In this document: positions 27,062-45,322 of the stretch, in pieces
How the letters are laid out: every line of letters begins with the position of its first letter
Numbering within the stretch: position 1 is the first letter of the stretch
NCBI RefSeq assembly: GCF_040907265.1
Contig: NZ_JBFOHP010000002.1
Coordinates: forward strand, 1,116,001 to 1,180,000
Source of the DNA: Streptomyces sclerotialus
GTDB lineage: Bacteria > Actinomycetota > Actinomycetes > Streptomycetales > Streptomycetaceae
DNA: 64,000 bases
Reading direction: 5' to 3'
The notes under the pieces: generated by a model
The model's database searches: none
Told to the model about the DNA's origin: nothing
The model's input: only the letters and a program-made list of their open reading frames with translations
Made by a program: the position numbers and the translations under genes

Positions 27062-27850
27062 TCAGGCCGCCCGCCCTTCGGCGTGCCCGCCGCGGGCCAC
27101 CGGATCGCCGACGGCGTAGTGGACGTACTCGTGTACCAAACGGAAGCCGGCGGTCCAGGCCAGCAGGCGGCTGGCGCGGTGGTGGACCGAGCAGTTCCAG
27201 CTGGGCGTGTGGCCCCGGGACGCGATGTCGGCGCTCAGTGCGGCCACGCAGGCCAGGGCGAGGCGATGGCGGCGGTGGTCGGGCGTGGTGAAGGCTGCCA
27301 CCTCTTCGTACCGGGTCCCGCGGAAGTACGTACATGCCACGGCCAGAATGCGTCCCGCGCGGTTCAGGGCCGCCCAGCAGTGTCCGGATGCGGCGAGTCC
27401 CCGGGGCCCGCCCCAACTCGCCGTCAGCCACGCCGCGTCGGGCCCGAGAGCGGTCAGAGCGTGCGCATCCGCCGGCCCGAGACGGCGTACGGTCACCCCG
27501 CGCGGCAAGGAGTACCGCTGTGGCTCCGCCTGTTGCGTCCACACCATCCGTTCCCAGGGAGTGAGCCGGTCGAAGGCGGTGCCCAGGAGAGGCAGGAAGC
27601 GGGCGGACGCATCGATGTAACTGCCCGCCCAGGGAGCCAGTTCCTCGGGCGTGAGCCCGTCGGGGACTCCCCGCAGCAGCACGTGGCCGGCGCAGGACAC
27701 ACCGACGGTGCGAGGCAGCACGATCCGGTCGGCCCGCCAGCGGCCGATCCCTGTGAGGAGCACATGCTCGGCGAGCGGCACCGCACAGGGGTTCTCCTCG
27801 GCCAGGCGTGAGGCGAAAGCGGGCAGCTGTGAAGGGGCAATGTTGATCAT
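27062..27850 (-). CDS. GNAT-fold acetyltransferase-like protein
   Basis: A 262-residue protein whose C-terminal half has the GNAT layout: VRRLGPADAHALTAL opens the domain, then ILAVACTYFRG as the central strand, and FTTPDHRRHRLALACVAALSADIASRG in the acetyl-CoA binding region, ending with SVHHRASRLLAWTAGFRLVHEY, the usual final helix and strand. The N-terminal half is a separate domain (AEHVLLTGIGRWRADRIVL) seen in FR47-like proteins. It starts at the ATG at 27850. A block of 11-bp repeats on its own strand lies at 28017-28044, so it may belong to the potassium regulon. Confidence 0.7.
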   Translation of the reverse strand: MINIAPSQLPAFASRLAEENPCAVPLAEHVLLTGIGRWRADRIVLPRTVGVSCAGHVLLRGVPDGLTPEELAPWAGSYIDASARFLPLLGTAFDRLTPWERMVWTQQAEPQRYSLPRGVTVRRLGPADAHALTALGPDAAWLTASWGGPRGLAASGHCWAALNRAGRILAVACTYFRGTRYEEVAAFTTPDHRRHRLALACVAALSADIASRGHTPSWNCSVHHRASRLLAWTAGFRLVHEYVHYAVGDPVARGGHAEGRAA

Positions 27851-28321
27851 CGGTGCCTTGTGTCCGAGTGGGATCCGGCAGTGGCCGGTGTCATGGTGAG
27901 CGGCGCACGTACCGTCCGGGCACGTCCCGTAGTGGGACCTCGACGCTGTTGTTCCGTGACGAGTGACGGGGCCGCGAGATTCATGCAATGCCGCCCGGTC
28001 GTCGCTCGGCAAGGGCGGCAACGTGCCCCTGACACGCCCTTGATGCCTGCGGATACGAACGTGCCTGCGCCGCGCATACCGTCCCCTGGGCCGCGAGGGG
28101 CCCCGAACGCTTCCAGCCGGCCGGACTTCCCGGCACACCGCTCTCACCCCGTCGGCACAGTGGCTCGTCAAGGCAGTGTCAACGTCGGTGTGCGGAGCGC
28201 CAAGGGCGCGTCAAGGGCGTCCGCGGGCGGCTCACGAAAGCTCTTCGACGGGCTTCTGTGGGAGGAAACGGCTCAGGGACCCAGGGAGTGGACTGCCGGT
28301 GAGCGGAGCACGTCGGCCGCG
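27851..28321. promoter_or_regulatory. Divergent promoter region between acetyltransferase and kdpD
   Basis: 470 bases without a supported gene, holding two sets of 11-bp direct repeats. On the minus strand: ATCAAG, GTCAGG, GTTGCC at 28044-28017, each 11 bp apart. On the plus strand: GTCAAG at 28167 and GTCAAC at 28178, and GCCAAG at 28199 and GTCAAG at 28210. They point at the two divergent genes respectively. Confidence 0.6.
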
Positions 28322-30922
28322 ATGAATGACGTACTACCCGGACAGATGAATGACGTACGACCCGGACAACTGAAGGTCTACCTGGGGGCTGCCCCCGGCG
28401 TCGGCAAGACCTACCGCATGCTCGACGAGGGACGACGCAGGGCGGGGCGCGGCGCCGACGTGGTGGTCGGTTTCGCCGAGTGCTACGGGCGCCCGCAGAC
28501 CGAGGCGATGCTCGACGGCCTGGAGGTCCTGCCGCGCAAGCGCTGCGCCTACGGCGGCGGCTCTTTCACGGAACTGGATCTCGACGCACTGCTCGCCCGG
28601 AGGCCGCAGGTCGCCCTGGTCGACGAGTTCGCCCACACCAATGTCCCCGGCTCCGGCCGCAACGCCAAGCGCTGGCAGGACGTCGAACAGCTCCTGGCCG
28701 CCGGAATCGATGTCATCACGGCGGTCAACATCCAGCACCTGGAGTCGCTCAACGACGTCGTCGAAAAGATCACCGAGATGCCGCAGAGCGAGACGGTGCC
28801 CGACGAGGTGGTCCGCCGGGCCCAGCAGATCGAGTTCGTCGACATCCCGCCCGAGGGGCTGCGCCGCAGGATGGCGCACGGCAACATCTACGCCCCCGAG
28901 AAGGTCGACGCCGCGCTCGCCCACTACTTCCGCCCCGGCAACCTCACGGCGCTGCGCCAGCTCGCCCTGCTGTGGGTGGCGGGCCGCGTCGACGAGGCCC
29001 TTCGGTCCCACCGCTCGGAGCACGGCACCGGACGCGTGTGGGAGACCCGGGAACGCGTCGTCGTCGCCCTGACCGGAGGGCCCGAAGGCGCCACCCTGAT
29101 CCGCCGGGCCGCCCGCATCACCGACCGCTCCGCCCGCGGCGACCTGCTGGCCGTGCACGTGGCCCGCAGCGACGGGCTGGCCGCCGGCGCCTCGCACGCC
29201 TCCCTGGCCCGGCAGCGCCGGCTCGTGGAGGGCCTCGGCGGCAGCTACCACTCGGTGGTCGGGGACGACGTACCCACCGCGCTGGTCGAGTTCGCCCGCG
29301 CGGAGAACGCCACCCAGCTGGTCCTCGGTACCAGCCGCCGCGGCCGCCTGGAACGGTTCCTCACCGGCCGGGGCACGGGTGAGACGGTCACCGCCCTCTC
29401 CGGCGACATAGACGTCCACATGGTCACCCACGAGCGGGCCGGCCAAGGCGTCCTGCTGCCTTCCCGGCGCCGCACGCTCCCCCGCTCCCGCCGGATCGCA
29501 GGGCCGGTCGCCGGGCTGCTGCTGCCGCTCGCCCTGACGTCCCTGCTGAGCCTCGACACTGCCCGCAGCGCTCTCGACCTCACCAGCGAGGCGCTGCTGT
29601 ATCTGATGGCCGTGGTGGGCGTGGCGTGCATCGGCGGCGTCGTCTCGGCGCTGATCGCCTCCGTCACTGCCTCTCTGCTGCTCAATTACTGGTTCATACC
29701 GCCCGTCGGGCACTTCACGCTCGGCGATGCGAACAGCATGGTGGCGCTCGTGGTATTCGCAAGTGTCGCCGTCACGGTTGCCGCCGTCGTGGACCGTTCG
29801 CTGCGGCTGTCCAGGCGCTCCGCCCGGGCCACCGCCGAGGCCGAGACCATGTCGTCCCTCGCGGGCGCCATCGTGCGCGGCGACGCGACGATTCCCGCGC
29901 TGCTGACCCGTGCCAAGGAGACGTTCGGCATGCTCTCGGTGGAGCTGGTCGGTGAGCCATCCGTTACCGGGGCCAACGGCCCGGCGTCCGATGCGAGTGC
30001 GAGCGATGCCGTGACCACTGTGCCCGCCGGCCCGGGCTCCTACCTCGTCCTGCGCGGGCGTGCTCTGCCGTCATCCGAGCGCCGCGTGCTGGCCGCCTTC
30101 GCCGCCCACGTCGGCGCCGCGGTCGAACGGGCCCGGCTTGCCGAGGCCGCCGCCGAAGTGGAGCCGGTCAAGGCCGCCGACCGCATGCGCACGGCCCTGC
30201 TGCGCGCGGTCGGCCACGACCTGCGCACGCCCCTCGCCGCCGGCTGGGCCGCGGTCTCCTCCCTGCGCAGCCGGGAGGTGGAGTTCTCCGAGGAGGACCG
30301 GCAGGAGCTGCTCGCCACCGCCGACGAGTCCATGGCCAAGCTGAACCGCCTGGTGGAGAACCTGCTGGACCTCAGCCGTCTCCAGGCGGGTGCCCTGTCC
30401 TTGCACCTGCGCGCCACCACGCTGGAGGAGGTGCTGCCGCCCGCACTGGAGTCGCTGCCTCCGGGCACCCCGGAGATCGAGGTACCGGACCTGGAGGAGA
30501 TCCCGGCCGTACAGGCCGATCCGCCGCTGCTGGAACGGGTGATCGCCAACCTGGCCGGCAACGCCGCTCGCCACACCCCGCCCGGGCAGAAGGTGCTGGT
30601 GACCGCCAGTGCCCTGGCCGGCCGGGTGGAAGTACGGATCGTCGACCGCGGTCCCGGCCTGCCGCCCTCGCCCACCCGCGACCGGCTCTTCGAACCCTTT
30701 CAGCGGCTGGGCGACACCGACAACACCACCGGGCTCGGTCTGGGCCTGGCGCTGTCCAAGGGGCTGACCGAGGCGATGAACGGCACCTTGCACCCCGAGG
30801 ACACCCCCGGCGGGGGCCTGACCATGGTGCTGTCCCTGCCCTTCGCCGAGAGGGTGCCGGACGTGCCGGTCCTGCGGCGCGTGAACTCGCGACCGGAGCC
30901 GCGCCCGGCGGAAGCCCCGTAG
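28322..30922 (+). CDS. kdpD: KdpD-type sensor histidine kinase, orphan copy
   Basis: An 866-residue KdpD paralogue. The N-terminal KdpD domain has the P-loop [13 protein letters not shown] and the [12 protein letters not shown] segment; a universal-stress-like domain follows (~225-360), then about four transmembrane helices (DUF4118, ~385-480), a GAF-like linker and the kinase core: phospho-acceptor His in AVGHDLRTPL, N-box NLAGNAARH, G1 DRGPGLP and G2 GLGLGLALSKG. All key residues are present. No kdpE lies beside it; the only one in the window is at 45456. The first 24 nt of the ORF are duplicated (ATG at 28322 and 28346), so the start is ambiguous by eight codons. Repeats of the 11-bp unit lie 107-155 bp upstream. 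Confidence 0.92.
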   Translation: MNDVLPGQMNDVRPGQLKVYLGAAPGVGKTYRMLDEGRRRAGRGADVVVGFAECYGRPQTEAMLDGLEVLPRKRCAYGGGSFTELDLDALLARRPQVALVDEFAHTNVPGSGRNAKRWQDVEQLLAAGIDVITAVNIQHLESLNDVVEKITEMPQSETVPDEVVRRAQQIEFVDIPPEGLRRRMAHGNIYAPEKVDAALAHYFRPGNLTALRQLALLWVAGRVDEALRSHRSEHGTGRVWETRERVVVALTGGPEGATLIRRAARITDRSARGDLLAVHVARSDGLAAGASHASLARQRRLVEGLGGSYHSVVGDDVPTALVEFARAENATQLVLGTSRRGRLERFLTGRGTGETVTALSGDIDVHMVTHERAGQGVLLPSRRRTLPRSRRIAGPVAGLLLPLALTSLLSLDTARSALDLTSEALLYLMAVVGVACIGGVVSALIASVTASLLLNYWFIPPVGHFTLGDANSMVALVVFASVAVTVAAVVDRSLRLSRRSARATAEAETMSSLAGAIVRGDATIPALLTRAKETFGMLSVELVGEPSVTGANGPASDASASDAVTTVPAGPGSYLVLRGRALPSSERRVLAAFAAHVGAAVERARLAEAAAEVEPVKAADRMRTALLRAVGHDLRTPLAAGWAAVSSLRSREVEFSEEDRQELLATADESMAKLNRLVENLLDLSRLQAGALSLHLRATTLEEVLPPALESLPPGTPEIEVPDLEEIPAVQADPPLLERVIANLAGNAARHTPPGQKVLVTASALAGRVEVRIVDRGPGLPPSPTRDRLFEPFQRLGDTDNTTGLGLGLALSKGLTEAMNGTLHPEDTPGGGLTMVLSLPFAERVPDVPVLRRVNSRPEPRPAEAP

Positions 30923-30998
30923 GGCACGCACGGCGCGGGGCGGCGGGCCGGAACCGGGGGTGTCCGGCCCGCCGCCCCTGTCAGTCCTGTCAGCCCTG

Positions 30999-31130
30999 TC
31001 AGCCCTGGCTGGCCTTGCTGGCCTTGCTGGCCTTGCTGCCGTGGTTGGCCTTCTTCTTGCGGCGTGCTTTCTTCTTGCCGCGTGCTTTCTTCTTGCGGCG
31101 TGCCTTCTTCTTCCGGGCGCGCTTCGACAC
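30999..31130 (-). CDS. Lysine/arginine-rich 43-residue protein
   Basis: A GTG at 31130 opens 43 codons coding for KRARKKKARRKKKA repeated with small changes, then KKKANHG and SKASKASKASQG. The gene starts 14 nt after the stop of the SDR gene and runs in the same direction. About half of the residues are Lys or Arg, so it must bind nucleic acid. The KKxANHG ending resembles the small actinobacterial ribosomal protein bL37, which is why I favour a ribosome- or nucleic-acid-associated role, but the internal repeats are not found in that protein as I know it. The repeats could also shift length by slippage. Confidence 0.6.
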   Translation of the reverse strand: MSKRARKKKARRKKKARGKKKARRKKKANHGSKASKASKASQG

Positions 31131-31144
31131 GGTGTCCCGTCCCT

Positions 31145-31954
31145 TCAAGCGGTGTGGCCGACGAGCAGGTCGGCGAGCTTGTTGAGGCGCTTCACGTTGC
31201 GGTCCTCCATGGCGGCGGGAGCGGGTTCGACCCGCCGGTCACGGTCGTAGTACGCACCGTTGACGATCTCGGTCGCCGGGTCGCAGAGCCGCACGACATG
31301 GGCCGCGCCCTCGGCCGCGGACGCGCCTCGGTTGCCGTACAGGTGCAGCAGGCCGGTCTCACAGATGCCGGGGTGGACGGAGACGGCCGTCACCCGGGGA
31401 TCGGCCGCGAAGACCGTGAGCGCCAGCTGGGACTGGGCGTACGCGGCGAGGCGGGAGTAGCGGCGGGCACGGTGGGGGTCGCTCCACTGGATGGAGGCGG
31501 TGCGGTGCAGCGAGGAGGAGACGTTGACGACGCGGCCGCCCGGGTCGCTGGTCAGAGCGGGGGCCAGGAGGTTGGTGAGGAGGTAGTGCGCGAGGAAGTT
31601 GACCTGGAAGGCGATCTCGTTGCCGTCGGCGGTGATCGTGTGCCGCTCGGGTGCGGCCATCGCGGCGTTGTTCACCAGGACGTCCAGGTGCGGGTGTTCC
31701 CGCAGGACGCGTTGTGCCAGGTGCTCGGCCTCTTCCAGACGGGCGAAGTCCGCGGCGCAGGCGCACAGACGGGCGGGGTCGACACGGGCACAGGCGGCGA
31801 GCCGGTCCGCCGCCGCCTGCGCCTCTTCGGCGGTACGGCCGTGGACGAGGACGGTCGCTCCGCGTTCGGCGAGCTGCCGGGCGGTCTCGTAGCCGATACC
31901 GGTGGTCGCACCGGTCACCAGGACGGTACGGGCAGCGAGATCGGAGTCGGTCAT
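31145..31954 (-). CDS. Short-chain dehydrogenase/reductase lacking the catalytic lysine
   Basis: A 269-residue SDR of the retinol-dehydrogenase-like group: cofactor motif TGATTGIGYETARQL (residues ~13-27), NNAAM for the structural NAG-type motif, and SSSLH for the catalytic Ser. The expected YxxxK is read as Tyr-Ala-Gln-Ser-Gln, so the proton-relay Lys is Gln (codon CAG). The rest of the fold seems complete, so it may bind NAD(P) without normal turnover, or use another residue. The start ATG at 31954 follows GGGATG; longer versions give low-complexity sequence. It is followed by the Lys/Arg-rich small gene. Confidence 0.85.
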   Translation of the reverse strand: MTDSDLAARTVLVTGATTGIGYETARQLAERGATVLVHGRTAEEAQAAADRLAACARVDPARLCACAADFARLEEAEHLAQRVLREHPHLDVLVNNAAMAAPERHTITADGNEIAFQVNFLAHYLLTNLLAPALTSDPGGRVVNVSSSLHRTASIQWSDPHRARRYSRLAAYAQSQLALTVFAADPRVTAVSVHPGICETGLLHLYGNRGASAAEGAAHVVRLCDPATEIVNGAYYDRDRRVEPAPAAMEDRNVKRLNKLADLLVGHTA

Positions 31955-32306
31955 GGTGGTGCATCCCTTTCTTGTCTGCTTCTTTTCCGCTTCTTTTCCG
32001 CGCACTTGCGTGCGGGCACGCGCCACCGTGCGCCCACCGGCGGCCGTCATGAGTGCTGCCGGTGCGCGTCGAGGTGGCAGGCGGGCAGGAAAAGGGCGCC
32101 GGACCAGGTCACGGCGCCCTTTCGGGTGGGGAAGATGCGTCAGCGTGGAACGGACGTCTTCCGGCAGCGCGCGGCATGACCGTGAAACGCCGGATGAGGC
32201 GGCCGGTCGAGGAGGAGCCACGCGCTGTTCACGACTTCATCCAACTACCGTGCCGAGTCGGCCTCAAGGGAACCCGAGGCTTCTTGACGCGGGTCTGACG
32301 GAGGGC
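31955..32306 (-). promoter_or_regulatory. Intergenic region with an 11-bp direct-repeat pair
   Basis: No supported gene in 350 bases. On the minus strand GTCAGA (32299-32294) and GTCAAG (32288-32283) are exactly 11 bp apart, in the direction of the SDR gene but about 330 bp from its start, farther than for the other sites. Confidence 0.45.
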
Positions 32307-33170
32307 TCAGCCGCCGGCCCGCAGGCTGCCTACGAGCGCGATGACGCTGTGCGGAGCGTTGTCCAGGAGCAAGTGGCCCGCGTCGTCCAGGACGTGCGGT
32401 TCGGTGCCCAGAAGGCGCTGCGCGGCCGGCACGAGCCGGGTGTGGGGCAGGAAGATGTCATGAGCGCCTACCGCGACCGTGCACGGCACGGCTCGGGAGC
32501 GCGCCAGCACTGTTACGGGCAGGGGCCTGGGAGCCAGCGTGCTGCGGCATGTCTCGCCGACCAACGTCATCCACTCGGCGAGATGGGAGGGCACGGGACA
32601 CCCTGGGGCGCTCATCTGCCCCAGCAGGCGCGTGGTACGCGGCAGGCTGGGCCGCACCATCCACGGGACGGTGGCGCGCAGCAGGGGAACGGGGACGGCC
32701 AGTGGCATCAGGCCACCGGGAGACAGCAGCAGGCGACCGGCGATGCGCGGTGACTGCGCGGCCAGGGCGATGGCGGCCCCCAGGGAGTGGCCGATGACGA
32801 CGGCCGGCCCCGAAGCGACCTGTTGCAGTGCCTGGGACAGCCAGTGTCCATACCAGGGCAGGCGGGCGCGACGGGGCCGATGCTCGGCGCTGAGACCGGG
32901 CTGGCCAGGCACGTCCAACGCCGCCACCGCACCGATCCTCGCGAGTCCGGCGACCATGTCCAGCGCCACGGCGGCGTTCATATGGGTGCCCGGCACCAGC
33001 ACCAGCAGCGGCATTCCGTCCCGAGGCCGTCCGGCCGAGACCACGCTTGTGCTGCCGGCATCGGTGGCCACCTCCCAGCGGTGATGGGACACCTCCCATG
33101 CGTCCAGCCGGGCCGCACACCACGCTCGCACTCGAGCGCGGCCCGCTGCGCCGCGGTACACCGATGCCAT
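32307..33170 (-). CDS. Alpha/beta hydrolase
   Basis: A 287-residue alpha/beta-hydrolase-fold protein. The oxyanion strand is LLVLVPGTHMNAAV, the nucleophile elbow is VIGHSLGAAIALA (Ser near residue 125), the acid is likely the Asp in VAVGAHDIFLP and the His is in LDDAGHLLLDNAP. A lid region lies between ~150 and 210. The ATG at 33170 follows a GGGGGAGG ribosome-binding site; earlier starts add an Arg-rich leader. The substrate cannot be inferred. It lies between two potassium-related genes on the same strand, 100 bp after the orphan kdpB. Confidence 0.8.
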   Translation of the reverse strand: MASVYRGAAGRARVRAWCAARLDAWEVSHHRWEVATDAGSTSVVSAGRPRDGMPLLVLVPGTHMNAAVALDMVAGLARIGAVAALDVPGQPGLSAEHRPRRARLPWYGHWLSQALQQVASGPAVVIGHSLGAAIALAAQSPRIAGRLLLSPGGLMPLAVPVPLLRATVPWMVRPSLPRTTRLLGQMSAPGCPVPSHLAEWMTLVGETCRSTLAPRPLPVTVLARSRAVPCTVAVGAHDIFLPHTRLVPAAQRLLGTEPHVLDDAGHLLLDNAPHSVIALVGSLRAGG

Positions 33171-33271
33171 CGGCCTCCCCCTCCTCCCTCTCACTGTCCG
33201 AGCCACCGTCCACGGGCGGCCCTCCATAGGACCCGAGCCCGGCAAGCGCCGCAAGCAGCGTGTCGGGGGGC

Positions 33272-35458
33272 TCAGCCCAGTCCCGGTACTGCGGAGAGCA
33301 GCAGGTCGATCAGTTTGATGCCGATGAAGGGCAGGACGAGGCCGCCCAGGCCGTAGCGCAGGAGGTTGCGGCGCAGGAGGTCGTGGGCGGAGGCGGGGGT
33401 GTAGCGCACACCACGCAGTGCGAGCGGGATGAGCCCGATGATGATCAGGGCATTGAAGATGATGGCGGAGGCGATCGCCGAGGTGGGGCTGTGCAGGCCC
33501 ATCACGTTGAGCGCGGACAGACTCGGGTGGGCGCCGGCGAACATCGCGGGGATGATGGCGAAGTACTTCGCCACATCGTTGGTGATCGAGAAGGTCGTCA
33601 ACGCGCCGCGGGTGATGAGGAGTTGCTTTCCGATCTCGACGATGTCGAGGAGTTTCGTCGGGTTGGAGTCGAGGTCGACCATGTTGCCGGCCTCCTTGGC
33701 GGCGGAGGTACCGGTGTTCATCGCCACGCCGACGTCGGCCTGGGCCAGGGCGGGCGCGTCGTTGGTGCCGTCGCCGGTCATCGCGACGAGCTTGCCGCCG
33801 GCCTGCTCCCGTTGGATCAGGGCGAGCTTGTCCTCGGGCGTCGCCTCGGCGAGGAAGTCGTCCACGCCCGCCTCCTCCGCGATGGCCTTGGCGGTCAGCG
33901 GGTTGTCCCCCGTGACCATGACCGTCTTGATGCCCATCCGGCGCAGCTCCGTGAAGCGTTCGCCGATGCCCTCCTTGACCATGTCCTTGAGGTGGATCAC
34001 GCCGAGCGCCCGCGGGCCGTCCCAGTCGTGCACGGCGACGAGCAGCGGTGTGCCGCCGGCCGCGGCGACGGCGTCGGCGAACAGGCGGGCCTCGTTCGGT
34101 ACGTGGCCGCCGTACCGCTCCACCCAGTCGATCACCTGCGGTACCGCGCCCTTGCGTACGTGGCAGACGGCGCCGTTCGGCCAGCGCAGATCGATGCCGC
34201 TCATGCGGGTGCGGGCGCTGAACTCCACGAAGCGGGTCCGCTCCAGCTCCGCTACCGGCGGCTCGTGCACGCCGTACTTCTCCTTGGCCAGCGCGACGAC
34301 GGAACGGCCCTCCGGGGTTGCGTCGGCCAGTGAGGAGAGCTGGGCCGCGTCCGCCAGCCGCAGTTCGGGGGTGCCGGGCAGCGGTACGAACGCGGTCGCC
34401 ACGCGGTTTCCGTGGGTGATGGTGCCGGTCTTGTCCAGCAGCAGGGTGCCCACGTCCCCGGCCGCCTCGACGGCGCGACCGCTCACGGCGATGACGTTGC
34501 GCTGGACGAGGCGGTCCATGCCGGCGATGCCGATGGCGGAGAGCAGCGCGCCGATGGTGGTCGGGATGAGGGTGACCAGGAGAGCGACCAGGACCGTGGT
34601 GGACTGGGCCGAGTTCGCGTAGTCGGCCATCGGCTGGAGCGTGACCGTCACCAGGACGAAGACGATGGTGAGTGCGGCGAGGAGGATGTTCAGGGCTATT
34701 TCGTTGGGTGTCTTCTGCCGGGAGGCGCCCTCGACCAGCGCGATCATGCGGTCGAGGAAGGTGTGGCCGGAGCGCGAGGTGACCCGTACGACGATCCGGT
34801 CGGACAGCACCGTCGTACCGCCCACCACACCGGACCGGTCGCCGCCCGCTTCCCGGACGACCGGCGCGGACTCACCGGTCACCGCGGACTCGTCGACGGC
34901 CGCCGCACCGTCGACCACCTCGCCGTCGGCGGGGATCAGCTCGCCCGCCTCGACCAGGACGAAGTCGAAGGGCTGGAGGTCGGTGGCGCGCACCGCCTCC
35001 GTCTCGGCCCGGTCCAGGTTGATGCCGACCCGCCAGTTGTCGCGCAGCCGCAGCGCCACGGTGTCCGTACGGGCCTTGCGCAGCGACTCCGCCTGCGACT
35101 TGCCGCGCCCCTCGGCGACGGCTTCGGCGAGATTGGCGAAGATCACTGTGAGCCAGAGCCAGCAGCTGATCACCCAGGTGAAGACGGTGGGGTGCAGCAG
35201 TGCCGCCAGCGTCGTCAGGGCGGCGCCGACCGCGACGACGAACAGCACCGGTTTCCTGACCAACGCTCGGGGCCGCAGCTTGCGCAGGGCGTCGGGCAGG
35301 GCCGACAGCAGCTGCTTCGGATCGAAGAGCCCGGCCGGCGCGGCCCGTCGCCGTCTGCCGCGCCCCCGCCGGGGATGCGGGCTCCGGTCCTGGCCGGTCG
35401 TCCGGGCCCTGGTGTCCGTCGGATCGGAGGGCGCCTGCTGTGGGGCGGCAGGAAGCAT
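33272..35458 (-). CDS. kdpB: KdpB-type P-type ATPase, second copy without kdpA/kdpC
   Basis: A 728-residue P-type ATPase closely related to KdpB. It has the TGES actuator loop (VTGESAPV), the phosphorylation motif [23 protein letters not shown] for the hinge, and the KdpB-type end ([19 protein letters not shown]). An N-terminal extension of ~45 residues is Arg-rich ([12 protein letters not shown]). KdpB alone does not carry K+ in known systems; it works with KdpA, KdpC and KdpF, and none of these lies on this strand nearby. It may swap into the complex made from the operon at 40721, or be an unused paralogue. Start at 35458, with AAGGT 9 nt before it. Confidence 0.92.
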
Positions 35459-36264
35459 AGGAGGTGACCTTCTGGGCGTGACGGGCCGACTGCCGAGGCG
35501 GGTTCGGCCGACGGGTCGGCAGGGAACGGTGGCCGCCGGGCTCTGCCGGGGCCGGGGCGTCGGCCCCGGCAGAGCTGCGCGCGACAGCGGCGGTGTTGAG
35601 GGAGCCGCCGCGTGCGCGCCGCCCGGAGGTGCGCCTGCTGTTGGTATCGGGCGCGGTGCGTCCGGCCGCTCCGCCGGGGAACGGCCGGGTCCGGCGTCCC
35701 GATGACGGGCGCGGACCTCCGGTGGCCGAGCAGGAACGTATCCCGGACGCGATGCCGGGAACCACGGCGCCACCGCGTTTTGTCACGCCCCTGACGGGCG
35801 GTCCGGCCACGGTGCCAAGCCTGCGTCAACGCGACCCGGGAAAGCGTCAGGGCGGCATCAAGGGATGCGGCCGGCGTACGAAGACGATCACAGACTGAAC
35901 GGCGCGCGGACGGCAGACCGTCCGTGCCGCGCCACCGGCGGGTGCCGCTCACCGTCGGTACGGCGGGTGGCCCGGAGAGGGGGCCCGGGCCACCCGCCCC
36001 GGCGCGAGGCGGCACGACCGTCCCGCCGCAGGACCGTGCCGGCCGCATCGACGAGGGGGGTGCGGCCGGGCGGCCCGTTGCTTCCCGCTCCGTCAGGAGG
36101 GCGTCAACAGGGCGTCAACGCCGCAGGCCCGCGCGACAAGAAAGTGCCAATCTCCGGCGCGCCTGCGCATCGGAAGCACCTCGCGCGGGGTGGTCTTCTC
36201 ACGGCGTGGTTTCGCAGACGTCGTGTGCACACCTTGCCCTGGAACGCGGAGGAGTTGGTCGGCG
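35459..36264. promoter_or_regulatory. Long divergent intergenic region between kdpB and kdpF copies
   Basis: About 800 bases with no supported gene. At 35825-35862 it holds GTCAAC, then GTCAGG 21 bp later and ATCAAG 11 bp after that. At 36092, 36103 and 36114 there are three perfectly spaced units (GTCAGGAGGGC, GTCAACAGGGC, GTCAACG), 146 bp before kdpF. The second block is the best example of the 11-bp repeat in the window. Confidence 0.65.
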
Positions 36265-36354
36265 GTGACGGTGGAGAACGTCGTCGGGTTGGTGATCGCC
36301 ATGTGTCTGGTCGGCTACCTCGTCCTGGCCTGCATCTTCCGGGACCGCTTCTGA
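36265..36354 (+). CDS. kdpF: KdpF, orphan copy
   Basis: A 29-residue single-helix peptide: VTVENVVGLVIAMCLVGYLV followed by LACIFRDRF. It aligns along its whole length with the kdpF of the operon at 40721 (ENxVGL, GYLVLA, RF end), so it is a real KdpF rather than a chance frame. GGAGGAG lies 9 nt before the GTG. No kdpA follows; the next 120 bases are non-coding. KdpF stabilises the KdpABC complex, so a separate copy could serve the main complex or the orphan KdpB. Confidence 0.8.
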   Translation: MTVENVVGLVIAMCLVGYLVLACIFRDRF

Positions 36355-36478
36355 CCTGGGCAGTCGTGTGCCACCCAGGATGGCCGGCCGTCGAGCGGAC
36401 GCGGCGCTCCGGTGGTATGCAGGCCATAGGACATGCTCTGCGGCGTGGCCAAGGCATGGCGAGCGCAGGAGGTGGGCC

Positions 36479-36709
36479 ATGACCGGCTGGACGAGACGAG
36501 AGGCTGTCACGGGGCTGCGGCACCGCCTCGCGCCGATGCGCACCCCTTTCGCGCCGGCGGCCGCGCTCGTCGCACCTACTACGGCAGGTTCCTTCTCACC
36601 CCCCGAGCCCGGCCCCATGCCGCCACTCCAGGCCCGCCTGGTCGCGGTGCTCCTGGCCGACCAGGCAGGGGCGGCACTCGGCACGGCCGGCCGGTCCGAC
36701 AACGACTGA
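36479..36709 (+). CDS. Small hypothetical protein
   Basis: A 76-residue frame with an excellent ribosome-binding site (AGGAGG 6 nt before the ATG). The product begins basic (MTGWTRREAVTGLRHRL), has a Pro-rich middle (PPEPGPMPPL) and a short Ala/Leu helix near the end (ARLVAVLLADQAGAAL). No domain is recognised. It stands between kdpF and the 11-bp repeats of the lysA unit, in the same direction. Confidence 0.45.
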   Translation: MTGWTRREAVTGLRHRLAPMRTPFAPAAALVAPTTAGSFSPPEPGPMPPLQARLVAVLLADQAGAALGTAGRSDND

Positions 36710-36737
36710 GGACTCCGGTGCCGGCACGCGGCCGCCC

Positions 36738-36791
36738 GTCAGCAACTCGTCAGCACACGCCGCCGCGCCGTCAACAAGGCGTCAGAAGGCG
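36738..36791 (+). promoter_or_regulatory. 11-bp direct repeats before the leader ORF and lysA
   Basis: GTCAGC at 36738 and 36749, and GTCAAC at 36770 with GTCAGA at 36781: two pairs with exact 11-bp spacing, the pairs 21 bp apart (two helical turns). They lie 115-168 bp before the leader ORF. Confidence 0.65.
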
Positions 36792-36905
36792 TACGCAGAC
36801 GCCCGGTTGCCCGGTTCCGTGGGCATGAGCGTCCTTGCCGGGCCCCGACCTCCCGGCTCCCCTCCAGCACCGGGGCCCTCATCTCCACTCCCAAGGAGGA
36901 ACGTC

Positions 36906-37004
36906 ATGGTTGACGTACTGCCGGCCGACGCACCGGAACCGGCCGCCTGCGCGGCCCGTCACCGGCCGACCGGCCGGCACCCGTTGCCGGGGCTGACGTC
37001 ATGA
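36906..37004 (+). CDS. 32-residue upstream ORF coupled to the decarboxylase
   Basis: An ATG after a very strong AAGGAGG site opens 32 codons: MVDVLPADAPEPAACAARH followed by RPTGRHPLPGLTS. Its stop overlaps the next ATG (ATGA). The downstream gene has no strong ribosome-binding site of its own, so ribosomes ending here are the likely source of its translation. The first half is acidic and the second half is basic with one Cys. It could be a regulatory leader, a translational coupling device or a peptide product; nothing in it matches a known attenuator. Confidence 0.6.
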   Translation: MVDVLPADAPEPAACAARHRPTGRHPLPGLTS

Positions 37005-38335
37005 CCACCGTCGACGTCTCCCCGGCTGCCGCGGACGCGGACGAGCTGTCCGTGTGGCCCGCCTCCACCACCCCGCTGCCGTGCGGTGACCTCGAAGTGG
37101 GCGGGGTACCGCTCGCCCAGGTCGCCGACCGTTTCGGCACACCCGTGTACCTGCTGGACGAGGCCGAGGTACGGGAGCGCTGCCGGCTCTACGCGCACGC
37201 CTTCCCGCACGCCGACATCCGGTACACGGCCAAGGCGTTCCTCTGCCGCGCGATGGCCCGCTGGGTGGCGGAGGAGGGGCTCGGGCTAAACGTCTGCTCG
37301 GCAAGCGAGCTGGAGGTCGCGGTCGCCGCCGGCGTACCGCCGGACCGTATCGTCCTGCACGGCAACGCCAAGAGCCCACACGACCTGGAGGCCGCGCTGC
37401 GGCTCGGCGTGGGCCGTATCACCATCGACAGCCTGCCGGAGATCACCCGGCTGGCCGCGGCCGTCGGACCCCACGACGAACCCGTCAAGGTGCTGGTCCG
37501 CGTCGTGCCCGGCATCAGCACCGGGCTCCACGAGAAGACCAGCACCGGCACTGGGGTCCAGAAGTTCGGCCTGTCGATGACCGACGGCAGCGCCCACCAC
37601 GCCATCGCGCGCGTCCTCGCCCAGCCCGAGCTGGAGCTGACCGGTCTGCACTGCCACCTGGGCTCGCAGATCACCAGCGTCAGGCCTTACCTCACTGCCG
37701 TGCACCGCCTGACCGGGCTCATGGCCCGCCTCCACCAGTCCTACGGCTTCACCACACGCGAACTGGACCTGGGCGGCGGGCACGGCATCGCCTACCGGCC
37801 GGGCGAGCCCGCACTGGACATCACGGCGCTCGCCCGCACCGTCCGCGCCGAGGTCTGCCAAGGCTGCGCGGCCGCCGGGCTGCCCGTCCCCCGGCTGATC
37901 GTCGAACCGGGCCGGGCCGTCGCCGGGCCCGCCGGCGTCGCCCTCTGCCGAGTGCTCACCGTCAAGCACACGGGGGCCCGTACCTTCGTCGCCGTGGACG
38001 GCGGCATGAGCGACAGCCCACGGCCCGCGCTCCACGGGGTGCGCTACGCGCCGCGCCTGGTCGGCCGGCTCTCGCTCGCCGAGCCCACGCGGGTGACCGT
38101 GGTCGGCCGGCACTGTGAAGCAGGCGACATCCTCGCCTCCGACGTGCCCCTGCCCGGTGACATCCGTCCCGGTGACCTGCTGGCGGTTCCGGCCGCCGGC
38201 GCCTACCACCTGTCCGTGGCCTCCGCGTACAGCCCCGTCGGCCGCCCGCCGGTGGTCGCCGTGGCGGACGGGTACGCGCGGCAGGTCGTGCGACACGAGA
38301 CCTTCGACGGCCTGGCCAGGCAAGACGTCGGATAG
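37001..38335 (+). CDS. lysA: Fold-type III PLP decarboxylase, diaminopimelate decarboxylase-like
   Basis: A 444-residue alanine-racemase-fold decarboxylase. The PLP lysine is Lys78 in RYTAKAFLCRAMARW; the phosphate/substrate segments LHGNAKS, GLHCHLGSQ and LDLGGGHGI follow, then EPGRAVAGPAG, and the cysteine of the C-terminal domain is in GRHCEAGD, where the family donates a residue to the partner's active site. Sequence and length fit meso-diaminopimelate decarboxylase (last step of lysine synthesis), but the main lysA of Streptomyces normally sits with threonine-pathway genes (established knowledge), so this is probably a second, specialised copy. The cell might use lysine or a product amine in osmotic adjustment; that is an inference from the potassium setting. 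Confidence 0.85.
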   Translation: MTTVDVSPAAADADELSVWPASTTPLPCGDLEVGGVPLAQVADRFGTPVYLLDEAEVRERCRLYAHAFPHADIRYTAKAFLCRAMARWVAEEGLGLNVCSASELEVAVAAGVPPDRIVLHGNAKSPHDLEAALRLGVGRITIDSLPEITRLAAAVGPHDEPVKVLVRVVPGISTGLHEKTSTGTGVQKFGLSMTDGSAHHAIARVLAQPELELTGLHCHLGSQITSVRPYLTAVHRLTGLMARLHQSYGFTTRELDLGGGHGIAYRPGEPALDITALARTVRAEVCQGCAAAGLPVPRLIVEPGRAVAGPAGVALCRVLTVKHTGARTFVAVDGGMSDSPRPALHGVRYAPRLVGRLSLAEPTRVTVVGRHCEAGDILASDVPLPGDIRPGDLLAVPAAGAYHLSVASAYSPVGRPPVVAVADGYARQVVRHETFDGLARQDVG

Positions 38336-38465
38336 CGGGTCCGGCGTCCGCATCGCCGCCATGCCGGCGGCGTCTCCCGTGAGACCACCTCCGAGCGGCC
38401 GCGTGTCCCCTTCCGCCGCCCGGAGGTGCCCACGGCCTCTTCTGCGCTGCCCTCCCGCTCCCACC

Positions 38466-38515
38466 GTCAACGGACCGTGAAGACCGGGGCCAACGGCGCG
38501 AAGAACGCGTCAGGG
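38466..38515 (+). promoter_or_regulatory. 11-bp direct repeats before the KimA-like gene
   Basis: GTCAAC at 38466 and GTGAAG at 38477 are 11 bp apart; a weaker GCCAAC follows at 38489 and GTCAGG with the full GTCAGGGCGGC unit is at 38509. They lie 67-116 bp before the start of the transporter gene. Confidence 0.5.
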
Positions 38516-38581
38516 CGGCACGCGACGGCCCCCGGGCGGCCCGAACCTGGGCGGACCCATGTATGCCGAAGGAGTACCCGC

Positions 38582-40438
38582 ATGTCCGTCCTGACCAGCG
38601 AATACGGCAGTGCCCCCGCGCACGAGGACCCGTCGGACCCGCCCGACCGCGACCCCGGCGAACGGCACCGGCTCACGACGGTCACCGGCCTCGCCGCCCT
38701 CTCGCTGGACGCGATGGCCTCGGTGGCGTACGGCCCCGAGGCGATCGTGCTGGTGCTGGCCGCGGCGGGCGGCTACGGACTCGGCTTCACCCTGCCGGTG
38801 ACGCTGGCGATCGCCGGGCTGCTGGCGGTGCTGGTGGCCTCGTACCGGCAGGTGATCGCCGCCTTCCCGGACGGCGGCGGCTCCTACGCGGTGGCCAGGA
38901 CGTACCTGGGCCGGCGCGCCGGCCTGGCCGCCGCGGGATCGCTGGTACTGGATTACGTACTGAACGTCGCGGTGGCGGTCACCGCCGGTGTCGCCGCCCT
39001 CACCTCCGCCTTCCCTGCGCTCCACCCGGACCGGCTGTGGCTGTGCCTGGCCGTCCTGGTCCTGCTCACGGCGGTCAACCTGCGCGGCATCGTGGACTCG
39101 GCGCGGGCGTTCATCGTGCCGACCGCGGTCTTCGTCCTCTCGATCCTCGCACTGATCGTGGTGGGGCTGTTCCGCTCGGCGCCGGTGAGTACCGAGGCCG
39201 CTGCCGGGCACGCCCCTGTGCTGGCCGACAACGCCACCGGCGTCGGTGCGCTGCTGCTGCTCAAGGCGTTCGCGTCCGGCTGCTCCGCGCTCACCGGTGT
39301 CGAGGCGATCGCCAATGCCGTGCCCTCCTTCCGGGTTCCGCGGGCCAGGCGGGCGCAGCACGCCGAGGTCGCCCTCGGCGCGATCCTCGGCGTGATGCTG
39401 ATCGGGCTCGGAGTGCTGATCTCACGGTTCGGGCTGCAGCCGGTCGAAGGCGTCACGGTCCTCGCACAACTCGCCGATGCCGCGCTCGGACACAACTGGG
39501 CCTTCTACCTCGTGCAGTTCGCGACGACGATGCTGCTCGCACTGTCCGCGAACACGTCCTTCGGCGGCCTGCCGGTACTGCTGAAGCTGCTGGCCCGCGA
39601 CAACTACGTACCGCATGTCTTCACGCTCAAGGCCGACCGCCAGGTCCACCGGCACGGCGTGCTGGCCCTGGCCGGCATTTCGGCGGCACTCCTGGTCTTC
39701 TCCGGCGGGAACACCAATGCCCTCGTCCCGCTCTTCGCGATCGGCGTCTTCATCGGCTTCACCCTCGCCCAGACCGGCATGGTCCGCCACTGGCGTCAGG
39801 TACGCGGCCCCAAGTGGCGTGCCAAGGCATTCCTGAACTGTTCCGGTGCGGTCCTCACCGGCGTATCGGCGGTGGTGGTCACCGCCACGAAGTTCGGCGA
39901 CGGCGCATGGCTCGTCGTCATCGCTCTGCCCCTGCTGGTCGCGGCCTTCGAGACGGTGCACCGTACCTACGCGGCAATCGGCGAGCGGCTGGGGCTCGGC
40001 CGGGTCCCCGAGTGCCCGCACCGGGACCGCTCACTGGTGATTGTTCCGGTGTCGGGTCTGTCGAAGCTGACCAGCGAGGCGCTGACCGCCGCCGTGTCCC
40101 TCGGCGACGAGGTACGAGCGGTGACCGTCTGCCATCCCGACGCCGAGGACCGTGCCCGGACCGACGCGCTGGAGCGGGACTGGGCACTGTGGGAGCCGGG
40201 CGTTCCGCTGGTCCGCCTCCGTTACGAGCGCCGGGCACTGGGCCGCCCGGTCGCCGCGTACGTGCGAGAGGTCGCGGCCGCCGAGCCCGGTACCCGGATC
40301 ACCGTCCTGATCCCGGAGGTCGAGCCCGCCCGGCTGTGGCAGCGGATGCTGCAGAACCAGCGGGGCGCGATCGTCGCCCACGCCGTGCGCCGCGACACCG
40401 ACGCGGTCATCTGCCGGCTGCGCTTCCGACTGTCCTGA
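38582..40438 (+). CDS. kimA: KimA-like potassium importer
   Basis: A 618-residue APC-superfamily protein with about 12 transmembrane helices (residues ~35-480) and a ~130-residue cytosolic C-terminal domain (RSLVIVPVSGLSKLTSEAL opens it). The N-terminal part follows Bacillus subtilis KimA closely in pattern: LAALSLDAMASVAYGPEAIV, PDGGGSYAVARTYLG, AAGSLVLDYVLNVAVAV and TSAFPALHP. KimA is a high-affinity K+/H+ symporter that is shut by cyclic di-AMP in Bacillus. The GAAGGAG site before the ATG is strong. Repeats of the 11-bp unit precede it and the kdp operon follows 200 bp later, so the two uptake systems likely respond to the same signal. Confidence 0.82.
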   Translation: MSVLTSEYGSAPAHEDPSDPPDRDPGERHRLTTVTGLAALSLDAMASVAYGPEAIVLVLAAAGGYGLGFTLPVTLAIAGLLAVLVASYRQVIAAFPDGGGSYAVARTYLGRRAGLAAAGSLVLDYVLNVAVAVTAGVAALTSAFPALHPDRLWLCLAVLVLLTAVNLRGIVDSARAFIVPTAVFVLSILALIVVGLFRSAPVSTEAAAGHAPVLADNATGVGALLLLKAFASGCSALTGVEAIANAVPSFRVPRARRAQHAEVALGAILGVMLIGLGVLISRFGLQPVEGVTVLAQLADAALGHNWAFYLVQFATTMLLALSANTSFGGLPVLLKLLARDNYVPHVFTLKADRQVHRHGVLALAGISAALLVFSGGNTNALVPLFAIGVFIGFTLAQTGMVRHWRQVRGPKWRAKAFLNCSGAVLTGVSAVVVTATKFGDGAWLVVIALPLLVAAFETVHRTYAAIGERLGLGRVPECPHRDRSLVIVPVSGLSKLTSEALTAAVSLGDEVRAVTVCHPDAEDRARTDALERDWALWEPGVPLVRLRYERRALGRPVAAYVREVAAAEPGTRITVLIPEVEPARLWQRMLQNQRGAIVAHAVRRDTDAVICRLRFRLS

Positions 40439-40527
40439 CTCACCACGGTTTCTTGACGGCTCGCCCCTTCCGGGTGCGGGCCGTCAGTGGCATTTTCGCA
40501 GGTCGGCGAGGTGCGCGTATGGGATGC

Positions 40528-40576
40528 GTCAAGGGCGAGCCACACCTCGTAAGAAAGCCGTCAACGGCAATCACAG
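40528..40576 (+). promoter_or_regulatory. 11-bp direct repeats before the kdp operon
   Basis: GTCAAG at 40528, GCCACA at 40539, GTAAGA at 40549, GTCAAC at 40560 and TCACAG at 40571: a run of half-sites at 10-11 bp steps, ending 65 bp before the first small ORF of the operon. Confidence 0.65.
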
Positions 40577-40640
40577 TGGCTCAAAAAGGCGGTTTGCTCT
40601 AACCGTCAGTGCAACATTCCTTCTCGTTCAGGAGCTCTCG

Positions 40641-40724
40641 ATGGCCGACGTGGCCTTCGTCGTCACCACACTCGCGGTCTTCGCGCTGGTGGCCCTCGTC
40701 GCCAAGGGGGTCGCAAAGCTGTGA
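40641..40724 (+). CDS. 27-residue membrane peptide before kdpF
   Basis: An ATG with CAGGAGC 7 nt upstream opens [20 protein letters not shown] followed by AKGVAKL, a single hydrophobic helix with a basic end. The stop overlaps the kdpF GTG (GTGA). It is not a copy of KdpF, which follows. As first gene of the operon it could be a further small subunit or a regulator of the complex. Its position, codons and coupling argue that it is real. Confidence 0.65.
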
Positions 40725-40810
40725 CCGCCGAAAACATCGTCGGCCTCATCGTGGCCGCCGCCCTGCTGGGCTATCTCGTCCTCGCCCTCATTCACCCGGA
40801 GAGGTTCTGA
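40721..40810 (+). CDS. kdpF: KdpF
   Basis: A 29-residue single-helix subunit ([20 protein letters not shown] then LALIHPERF) that stabilises the KdpABC potassium pump. It follows the 27-residue peptide with a 4-nt overlap and precedes kdpA by 8 nt. It matches the orphan copy at 36265 in the ENxVGL, GYLVLA and RF-end positions. Confidence 0.88.
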
Positions 40811-40818
40811 GCACCACC

Positions 40819-42483
40819 ATGAGCCCCTTCCTCGCAGCGGTACTGCAGCTGCTCGCGCTGATAGCCGCGCTCGCCCTGGCGTACCGCCCCCTCGGCGACT
40901 ACATGGCCCGCGTCTACTCCTCCGACCGCCATCTGCGCGTCGAGAAGTGGATCTACAAAACCATCGGTGCCCGCCCGGACACCGAGATGCGCTGGCCCGC
41001 GTACCTGCGCGGAGTCCTGGCCTTCTCGGCCGCGGGCGTCCTCTTCCTGTACCTGCTGCAGCGGCTCCAGGGTTCGCTGCCCGGCTCGCTGGGCTTCGCC
41101 TCGATCGACCCGGACCAGGCGTTCAACACCGCCGCCTCCTTCGTGGCCAACACCAACTGGCAGTCCTACGCGGGCGAGCAGGCCATGGGCCACGTCGTGC
41201 AGACCGGCGGCCTGGCGGTGCAGAACTTCGTCTCCGCGGCGGTAGGCATGGCGGTCGCCGTCGCCCTCGTCCGCGGCTTCGCCCGGTCCCGCAGCGGGGA
41301 GCTGGGCAACTTCTGGGCCGACCTGGTACGCGGCACCGTCCGCATCCTCCTCCCGATCTCCGTCATCGGCGCGATCGTCCTGGTCGCCTGCGGCGCGATC
41401 CAGAACTTCGCCGGCATCCACGAGGTCGGCCAGTTCATGGGCGGCCACCAGCAGTGGCAGGGCGGCGCCTACGCCTCCCAGGAGGTCATCAAGGAGCTGG
41501 GCACCAACGGCGGCGGCCTCGCCAACGCCAACAGCGCCCACCCCTTCGAGAACCCCAACGGCTTCACCAACCTCTTCGAGATCTTCCTGATCCTGCTCAT
41601 TCCCTTCGCGATCACCCGCACCTTCGGCCGGATGGTCGGCTCGCTCCGGCAGGGCTACGCGATCCTCGCCACGATGGCGACCATCTGGCTCGGCTTCGTG
41701 CTGCTGATGTGGGCCACCGAGTTCGCCCACCACGGTCCGGCGCTCCAGGCGGCCGGCGGTGCGATGGAGGGCAAGGAGACCCGCTTCGGCGTCGGCGCCT
41801 CGTCGATCTTCGCGGTCACCACGACCCTGACCTCGACGGGAGCGGTCGACTCCTTCCACTCCTCGTTCACGGGTATCGGCGGCGGCATCACCCTGCTGGG
41901 CATGCAGCTCGGTGAGATCGCACCCGGCGGTGTCGGTTCCGGTCTCTACGGCATGCTGATCATGGCCATCATCGCGGTGTTCATCGCGGGCCTGATGGTC
42001 GGCCGCACCCCGGAGTACCTGGGCAAGAAGATCGGCACCCGCGAGATCAAGCTGGCCGCCTGCTACATCCTGATCACGCCGGCACTGGTGCTGTGCTTCA
42101 CCGCCGCGGCGATGGCGCTGCCCACCCCGCCACAGTCGATCCTCAACCCCGGCGCGCACGGCTTCTCCGAGGTCCTGTACGCGTACACCTCCGGTGCCAA
42201 CAACAACGGTTCGGCGTTCGCCGGTCTCAGCGCCGACACCCCGTGGTTCAACACCACGATCGGACTCGCGATGCTCCTCGGCCGGTTCCTGCCGATGGTG
42301 TTCGTCCTCGCGCTGGCCGGCTCGCTGGCGGAGCAGAAGCCGACGCCGGAGACGGCGGGCACCCTGCGTACCGAGAAGCCGCTGTTCAGCGGCCTGCTGG
42401 TCGGCACCATTCTGATCATCACCGGGCTCACCTACTTCCCGGCACTCGCGCTGGGCCCGCTCGCCGAAGGACTGGCGTCATGA
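40819..42483 (+). CDS. kdpA: KdpA, potassium-translocating subunit
   Basis: A 554-residue channel-like subunit with about 10 transmembrane helices. The four selectivity-filter repeats can be seen in part: [12 protein letters not shown] (first), [19 protein letters not shown] (second), [12 protein letters not shown] (third) and [13 protein letters not shown] (fourth). Length is normal (Escherichia coli about 557). K+ passes through KdpA and on through a tunnel to KdpB. It starts at the ATG at 40819 and its last codons overlap kdpB (ATGA). Together with B, C and F it forms an inducible high-affinity K+ pump in the plasma membrane. Confidence 0.97.
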
Positions 42484-44645: not shown

Positions 44646-45322
44646 CGCCCACCATGAACAACTCGGTAACGAACACCGCGCGACTGTTCGGCGCGGGCCT
44701 GCGCGCCCTCCTCGTCCTCACCGTCGTGTGCGGCGTGCTGTACCCGCTCGCCGTCACCGGCATCGCCCAGGCCCTCTTTCACCACCAGGCCAACGGCTCC
44801 GAGATCAGGAGCGAAGGCAAGGTCGTCGGCTCCGAACTCATCGGCCAGCGCTACGACCTGCCGCTCAAGAAGGGCCAGGAGACTCCGCAGCCCGACCTCA
44901 AGTGGTTCCAGCCGCGCCCCTCCAACGGCCTCGGCACCAACACGCTCAACACCCAGTACAAGCTGCTGGTGTCGGGCGCGACCAACCTCGCAGCCGACAA
45001 CCCCGAGCTCATCAAGTCGGTGAAGGAGGCGCAGACCGCCGTCATCAAGGACAACTCGGTGAACGGCTACCGGGTGAAGCCCTCCGACATCCCGGCCGAC
45101 GCCGTCACGTCCTCCGGATCCGGCCTCGACCCGGACATCTCGCCCGAGTACGCACAGCTCCAGGTGCACCGCGTCGCGGAGCGCAACCACCTCCCCGTCG
45201 CACGGGTGGAGAAGCTGGTCGAGGACCACACCGACGGCCGTGTCGCCGGCTTCATGGGCGAGCCCCGGGTCAATGTCCTCGAGCTCAACGTCGCACTCAG
45301 GGAACTCACCGAGAAGGGCTGA
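44642..45322 (+). CDS. kdpC: KdpC, potassium pump accessory subunit
   Basis: A 226-residue protein with one N-terminal transmembrane helix ([21 protein letters not shown]) and an extracytoplasmic domain. Family segments are present: [38 protein letters not shown] and a final LNVALREL. KdpC helps the pump gain its high affinity. GTG at 44642 is the coupled start; an ATG four codons later is possible. It ends 133 bp before kdpE. Confidence 0.95.

Follow-up and report, generated by a model that had tools for sequence, protein, structure and literature searches.

It is very probable that a repeated promoter element in a 64,000-nucleotide stretch (the window) of the 8.28-Mb genome of Streptomyces sclerotialus is an operator for KdpE, an OmpR-family response regulator encoded in the same stretch, and that KdpE would bind it as a double dimer and activate a potassium regulon at low K+. 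The element, referred to here as the four-box element, is made up of two 11-bp direct-repeat dimers approximately three helical turns apart, and reads GTCAR-N6-GTCAR-N16-GTCAR-N6-GTCAR, with box starts at 0, 11, 32 and 43. The comparative sequence data support a role for KdpE at three kinds of promoter: those of kdpFABC, of genes for KimA-like potassium transporters (kimA) and of lysA2, which encodes a diaminopimelate-decarboxylase-like enzyme. An earlier inspection of the letters alone (the sequence-only reading) had proposed that GTCAA-type units at 11-bp spacing form an OmpR-family KdpE box marking a potassium regulon. The units are real, and the proposal has held up, in that orthologous promoters keep the exact spacing and the half-site fits the KdpE site of Mycobacterium smegmatis; the true unit is, however, the larger four-box element, and some of the original units were misread.

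The four-box element in the window

The element was scored by pattern scans with mismatch thresholds. Six copies (≤3 mismatches) lie within 12.4 kb, starting at 28167, 35814, 36103, 36738, 38466 and 40517; 200 dinucleotide shuffles of the window yield 0.02 copies on average. In the whole genome, the same threshold gives 14 matches, six of them in this island, against two for the reversed pattern; the shuffle and reversed-pattern counts rule out a chance origin of the copies. Three of the eight matches outside the island fall in one low-complexity stretch at 324 kb, and another, at 1426503 (one mismatch), lies 157 bp before the gene of a SAV_915 protein, which is followed by another lysA2. A count of the spacings between all GTCAR in the window gives an extra signal at 32 bp, and thus the dimers occur in twos; this pairing, together with the copy at 35814, had been overlooked in the sequence-only reading. 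Single dimers are weak evidence compared with the four-box copies: 23 are observed in the window against a shuffle mean of 12.2 (standard deviation 3.4), and spacings of 9, 12, 21 and 39 also give 20–25.

The copies are on the plus strand. The one at 28167–28220 (one mismatch; boxes at 28167, 28178, 28199 and 28210, the third reading GCCAA) precedes an orphan kdpD; that at 35814–35867 (two mismatches) lies between an orphan kdpB on the minus strand and an orphan kdpF on the plus strand; that at 36103–36156 (two mismatches; boxes at 36103, 36114, 36135 and 36146, with an extra half-site at 36092) precedes the orphan kdpF; that at 36738–36791 (no mismatches) precedes a short leader open reading frame (ORF) and lysA2; that at 38466–38519 (three mismatches) precedes the KimA-like gene; and that at 40517–40570 belongs to the main kdp operon. 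The units previously listed before the orphan kdpD (28167/28178 and 28199/28210), the orphan kdpF (36092/36103/36114) and the leader–lysA2 pair (36738/36749 and 36770/36781) are all present. Before the KimA-like gene, the unit at 38466 stands but 38477 reads GTGAA. At the main kdp promoter, 40528 stands but 40539 (GCCAC) and 40550 (TAAGA) are out of register; a better register is 40517 GTATG, 40528 GTCAA, 40549 GTAAG and 40560 GTCAA.

The sequence-only reading had also added an acetyltransferase to the regulon and listed a more distant site before the gene of an SDR-family protein. A single minus-strand dimer is indeed found upstream of each gene: ATCAA/GTCAG (28044/28033; 28023–28044) before the acetyltransferase gene and a gene for a PH-like protein, where the third proposed unit, at 28022, reads GTTGC and is no unit; and, as a tentative site, GTCAG/GTCAA (32299/32288; 32278–32299) upstream of the SDR gene at 31145–31954. 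The best four-box matches in the two upstream regions have seven and six mismatches, respectively. Membership of these two genes is weakly supported, because each has a single dimer, a kind of site that does not exceed chance expectation in the window.

Conservation in other genomes

If the element is a KdpE operator, it should be located in kdpFABC promoters. The genus sample comprised 61 Streptomyces genomes, in 52 of which kdpA was found. In the 600-bp regions upstream of all 56 kdpA copies, scanned with the half-site GTMAR, the element is present in 45 (≤2 mismatches), 52 (≤3) or 54 (≤4), mostly approximately 300 bp before kdpA, the two exceptions being second kdpA copies at 62% identity. 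With other spacings, 0 or 1 (≤2), 0–3 (≤3) or up to 8 (≤4) regions match, and on the reverse strand three of 56 (≤3). A set of 80 named Streptomyces loci, retained from a KdpA search (in which S. violens came nearest, with 92% identity), has the element in 67 (≤2) or 77 (≤3), at a median of 305 bp before kdpA; wrong spacings give 0–12 at ≤3, and the reverse strand 4. The 12 matches, at 11/22 spacing, may represent reuse of the same boxes. A sample of 118 genomes of the class contained 60 with kdpA, 52 of these outside the genus; among 22 loci analysed from other families, 17 have the element at ≤4 mismatches with the 11/32 spacing, and other spacings, 33 bp excepted, give 0–3. Lack of conservation in orthologous Streptomyces promoters had been named beforehand as an outcome that would refute the KdpE proposal; the element is conserved there, with its exact spacing.

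The KimA-like protein (38582–40438, plus strand; AA_permease_2) is homologous to Bacillus subtilis KimA (6s3k, named KimA, E 4.4e-120) and is predicted to be a potassium transporter. Its orthologs number 18, at 72–100% identity, and 17 were testable, G039 having been dropped for its unmatched N-terminus. A forward element lies within 500 bp in 17/17 at ≤4 mismatches and in 11/17 at ≤3, against 0–3 and 0–1 of 17, respectively, for other spacings. An opposite-strand element (≤2) is present in eight of these regions, in one of which (G038) it is the kdp operon's own. KimA paralogs at 53–56% identity have the element in none of four cases, the best match having seven mismatches.

The product of lysA2 (37001–38335, plus strand) scores 395.8 bits with TIGR01048, above the equivalog cut-off of 297.9, and its nearest solved structure is 1hkv (E 1.4e-113). 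Its relatives form a close group (lysA2; 33 genes in 31 genomes) at 63–79% identity, beside the query itself, and a housekeeping-type group at 48–53%, of which 57 genes were compared; four rows at 43–49% were excluded from the grouping. Thirty of the 33 lysA2 genes were obtained as loci, 29 of them with enough upstream DNA, and the element (≤3 mismatches) precedes 26 of the 29, with other spacings giving 0–4. In the three misses it is on the opposite strand (G053) or farther upstream, before the SAV_915 gene (G060 and G018). Within the genus-wide tally described below, 29 of 108 four-box matches lie ≤1.5 kb upstream of lysA2, against none upstream of the 57 housekeeping-type lysA genes. All 31 lysA2 genomes have kdpA; lysA2 is present in 31 of the 52 kdpA genomes against none of the nine without kdpA (Fisher p 0.0008). 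The decarboxylase, which the sequence-only reading had added to the regulon, is a recurrent member of the predicted KdpE regulon. The 32-amino-acid (aa) leader ORF before it in the window (36906–37004, plus strand, identified by its translation) stands where a SAV_915 protein (NF042914) is encoded elsewhere, and by eye is possibly a remnant of that family.

Where kdpDE have a promoter of their own (20 loci fetched, 19 readable, L104 being unreadable), a single dimer (≤1 mismatch) is present in 17 of 19, mostly 141–171 bp before the KdpD Walker motif, and other spacings give 1–3. This dimer is also found in five of seven genomes lacking kdpA; the box therefore follows kdpDE, which points to KdpE.

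The genus tally (GTCAR, ≤2 mismatches) gave 108 four-box matches in 48 of the 61 genomes, against seven control matches: 15 before kdpA, 29 before lysA2 and 64 elsewhere. The element is oriented with the gene in 15/15 kdpA-linked and 27/29 lysA2-linked cases. A match is found in 46 of 52 kdpA genomes against two of nine without kdpA (Fisher p 0.0001). Likely targets among the fetched loci are SAV_915–lysA2, KimA, PH-like proteins, TrkH/TrkA (L067), kdpD (L050), kdpE (L082) and, in one genome, a GlnX-like protein slightly under its model cut-off; the non-kdp loci L035, L087 and L089 had no seed-gene match nearby. Targets that recur in several genomes, among the loci examined, are K+ genes, lysA2 with SAV_915, PH-like genes and MenG. 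In the last case, the element lies 223–330 bp before a MenG/UbiE menaquinone methyltransferase gene in three Streptomyces genomes (L049, L077 and L079).

Comparative support for the orphan kdp genes as regulon members is thinner than for kdp, kimA and lysA2. The orphan sensor kinase gene kdpD2 (28322–30922, plus strand, with start at 28322 or 28346) encodes a protein with Pfam domains KdpD, Usp, DUF4118, HisKA and HATPase_c and the sequence HDLRTP; in G001, a four-box element stands directly before a relative (82% identity over the 44 aa available). The start region of kdpD2 (28322–28370) contains a tandem pair of near-identical ATG-containing stretches (ATGAATGACGTAC..CCCGGACA). The orphan P-type ATPase gene kdpB2 (33272–35353, minus strand, start approximate; TIGR01497 kdpB, 966 bits) has neither kdpA nor kdpC adjoining. 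Its relatives, at 75–83% identity over the 293–464 aa available, were located in G004, G012, G019, G038, G039, G054 and G058 and adjoin KimA-type genes or four-box elements, the upstream element being inverted in G058 and G004; the main-operon KdpB proteins compared are approximately 71% identical to the orphan. The orphan kdpF2 (36265–36354, plus strand) encodes a 29-aa membrane peptide, VTVENVVGLVIAMCLVGYLVLACIFRDRF, which resembles the main-operon kdpF product by eye.

The island as a whole begins with the PH-like, acetyltransferase (both minus), orphan kdpD (plus), SDR, alpha/beta hydrolase and orphan kdpB (all minus) genes, and continues, entirely on the plus strand, with the orphan kdpF, leader, lysA2, KimA-like gene, a 27-aa peptide, kdpF, kdpA, kdpB, kdpC, kdpE and kdpD. 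The small membrane protein referred to as PH-like (26411–26851, minus strand) has no family match, although one relative matches bPH_6 at E 0.028. Relatives found by tblastn lie near four-box elements in other Streptomyces; in several their genes are divergent from a KimA-type gene, and some have an element of their own. The GNAT acetyltransferase gene is at 27062–27850 on the minus strand (PF12746, E 1.8e-14 on 27062–27841). In the main operon (plus strand), kdpF (40721–40810, from its translation) is followed by kdpA (40819–42483; Pfam KdpA, E 5.5e-227), kdpB (42480–44645; E1-E2 ATPase, placed between kdpA and kdpC), kdpC (44642–45322; Pfam KdpC, E 7e-66) and, after kdpE, kdpD (46220–48766, start approximate; Pfam KdpD, E 2.4e-98 on the longer frame 45929–48766). 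The 27-aa hydrophobic peptide ORF (40641–40724) lies between the kdp operator and kdpF, which it overlaps. An Rfam scan of 27500–46000 gave no match at gathering thresholds.

KdpE as the predicted binding protein

The proposed DNA-binding factor is the product of kdpE (45456–46139, plus strand). Its best NCBIfam model is KdpE, at 247 bits (below the model cut-off of 325), and it matches the KdpE chain 4kny at E 7e-65; a second KdpE is encoded at 6.15 Mb. Relatives are present in 59 of the 61 genus genomes, and the two without one at the cut-off (G017 and G043) are also without a four-box match. When the protein is aligned to chain 6lgq_D, which we take to be E. coli KdpE (numbering offset of 16 set by hand), R193, R200 and T215 all have counterparts, and thus a cognate KdpE with conserved DNA-contact residues is encoded in the genome. 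These three residues are reported to be important for DNA binding by E. coli KdpE (PMC3264566). The recognition helix is almost invariant among the KdpE proteins compared; two genomes outside the genus with altered helices are too few to link such changes to missing boxes. The element itself has the 10–11-bp direct repeats upstream of a promoter that are expected of an OmpR/PhoB-family site. In the proximal kdp dimer the sequence is GTAAG or GTATG-N6-GTCAA, and the minimal KdpE-binding sequence of M. smegmatis, defined by footprinting and electrophoretic mobility shift assay, is CCGTAAAGAAACCATCAAGGCC (PMC5401905), which reads as GTAAA-N6-ATCAA; compared by eye, half-site and 11-bp pitch agree. 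Outside the genus, L136 has GTAAAGAAACCGTCAATGCC in its kdp upstream region.

The position of the boxes relative to the promoter is also regular. In kdp promoters, TTT[CG]CT begins at +33 (49/77) or +34 (18/77) from the start of box 4, and none of the 77 has a canonical TANNNT near +33/+34; in lysA2 promoters, TANNNT is at +35 (19/25) or +34 (2/25) from box 4, and in kdpDE promoters at +54 or +55 from box 2 (16/17). The window has TTTGCT at +33 for kdp (40593–40598, plus strand) and TTCCGT at +34 for lysA2. If these hexamers are –10 elements, the proximal dimer would span approximately –57 to –36, which is where OmpR/PhoB activators usually bind. A SigF-type promoter (GTTT-N15-17-GGGTA; PMC5401905) is not readable in the Streptomyces kdp promoter, where only the –10-like hexamer is seen.

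We therefore envisage the following scheme. Phosphorylated KdpE, from the window gene or that at 6.15 Mb, would bind as two head-to-tail dimers, each occupying a pair of 11-bp half-sites and covering approximately 22 bp; 32 bp, or approximately three turns, apart, the dimers would lie on one face of the DNA, presumably as a tetramer. The proximal dimer would end directly upstream of the –35 region, since at kdp and lysA2 promoters the –10-like hexamer lies 33–35 bp downstream of the box 4 start, so that KdpE would make contact with RNA polymerase at promoters that lack a good –35 element. On sensing low K+, KdpD would cause kdpFABC, the KimA-like transporter, the orphan kdpF/kdpB/kdpD set and the dedicated lysA2 to be switched on, and kdpDE would be autoregulated via one dimer.

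Alternatively, a different OmpR-family regulator of K+ genes (PhoP, MtrA, AfsQ1 or a paralog) might occupy the boxes. There are many such regulators in Streptomyces, they bind direct repeats of similar pitch, and KdpE relatives are more widespread (59/61 genomes) than the four-box element (48/61), a point that also tells against KdpE. However, the half-site is GTCAA/GTAAG, with T at 3–9% at position 3 of boxes 2–4, as opposed to the GTTCACC of the PHO box; the proximal dimer matches the mapped M. smegmatis KdpE site; and the dimer stays with kdpDE in most of the genomes that lack kdpA. Another regulator is, on this evidence, improbable. Less likely still is an origin of the GTCAA units in local base composition, or in –35 promoter elements of the TTGAC type lying on the opposite strand. 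The two sequences are indeed reverse complements, and enrichment at the level of the dimer alone is modest, but the 0/11/32/43 pitch is specific, with neighbouring spacings almost empty, the orientation relative to kdpA and lysA2 is kept, and the distance to the –10-like hexamer is fixed in kdp and lysA2 promoters.

Several further observations weigh against KdpE control as proposed here. In kdp promoters, position 4 of box 1 shows poor conservation and the hexamer is TTTSCT rather than TANNNT; in the window, T[AT]NNNT is absent between +33 and +35 from the elements at kdpD2, 35814, kdpF2 and KimA. Outside the genus, five of the 22 loci are without the pattern, and the 33-bp spacing scores 8/22 there. 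The kdpDE dimer is missing from two genomes that have KdpE but no kdpA. Within the genus, some of the 64 matches that are not near kdpA or lysA2 were identified, and a few look by eye like simple repeats (those of G015, most of G028 and part of G000 and G044). The M. smegmatis site spans one dimer only; no binding of M. smegmatis KdpE to the kdpDE promoter of that species was seen, in contrast to the autoregulation envisaged for Streptomyces, and the authors report no such sequence in M. tuberculosis (PMC5401905). In salt-treated S. coelicolor, kdpFABC is reported to be mainly down (PMC13011467), which neither supports nor refutes KdpE control. According to unpublished S. venezuelae data cited in PMC10117811, development on a standard sporulation medium does not require KdpDE, nor does growth on nutrient agar supplemented with 0.5 M NaCl or KCl; low K+ is not mentioned in that passage.

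Lysine, potassium and known systems

B. subtilis grows without added K+ on lysine, ornithine, citrulline or arginine (PMC5573677), and the simplest reading of the role of lysA2 is that K+-starved Streptomyces would produce a cationic amino acid to replace K+ as counter-ion. We tentatively propose, at somewhat less than even confidence, that K+ pumps are induced by the KdpE double dimer together with a dedicated enzyme of lysine synthesis and its SAV_915 partner, lysine standing in for K+, and that the orphan KdpB found beside KimA transporters in several species is part of the same programme and may work without a KdpA or KdpC of its own. It is about equally plausible, and so a serious competitor, that the KdpE box is right but lysA2 serves a role other than K+ replacement, such as the supply of wall or siderophore precursors. 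In favour of this, CEAGD replaces the CESGD of 1hkv in 30/30 lysA2 copies (L240–L269), and therefore the substrate may differ; this change possibly marks an altered substrate. Of the other substrate-site motifs, GAY is kept in the copies listed and the AKAF-type lysine motif is matched in 27/30. Against it stand the growth of B. subtilis on lysine without added K+ and the restriction of lysA2 to kdpA genomes.

If the proposal is correct, Streptomyces hard-wire a cation-replacement programme to K+ starvation, and a testable role falls to three unexplained genes: lysA2, the SAV_915 gene that accompanies it and the gene of the PH-like protein next to KimA. With a defined element that can be scanned for, the K+ regulon of these antibiotic producers can be predicted from sequence, and the mycobacterial site is brought together with one present across the class. 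A KdpE site in actinobacteria is already known; no Streptomyces KdpE site or regulon was found in titles and abstract openings of the openly licensed literature, among the matches listed, and within that literature the tandem arrangement of two dimers, its distribution in the class and the regulon appear to be new.

The PHO box of Streptomyces, bound by PhoP, likewise consists of 11-bp direct repeats but has the half-site GTTCACC and serves phosphate genes. The base frequencies of 77 kdp promoters do not show that half-site, and the PHO box can be set aside, as the sequence-only reading had held. The KdpE site of E. coli kdpFABC also has two direct half-sites at 11-bp pitch, recognized by a homologous winged helix, but it is a single AT-rich dimer, TTTATA-N5-TTTACA (PMC3264566). 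Closest is the M. smegmatis site, where KdpE is a positive regulator of kdpFABC, induced in low K+, and where the GTAAA-N6-ATCAA dimer shares the Streptomyces half-site and pitch. It differs in being one dimer, reported as an A-rich motif of 22 bp; the text of the paper uses neither ‘direct repeat’ nor ‘tandem’, and kdpFABC is the only bound promoter named in the available part of it (PMC5401905). With regard to lysine, the B. subtilis case comes from suppressor mutations and feeding rather than from a wired-in K+ regulon such as that predicted here, and the likeness is that cationic amino acids, including lysine, partly replace K+ (PMC5573677).

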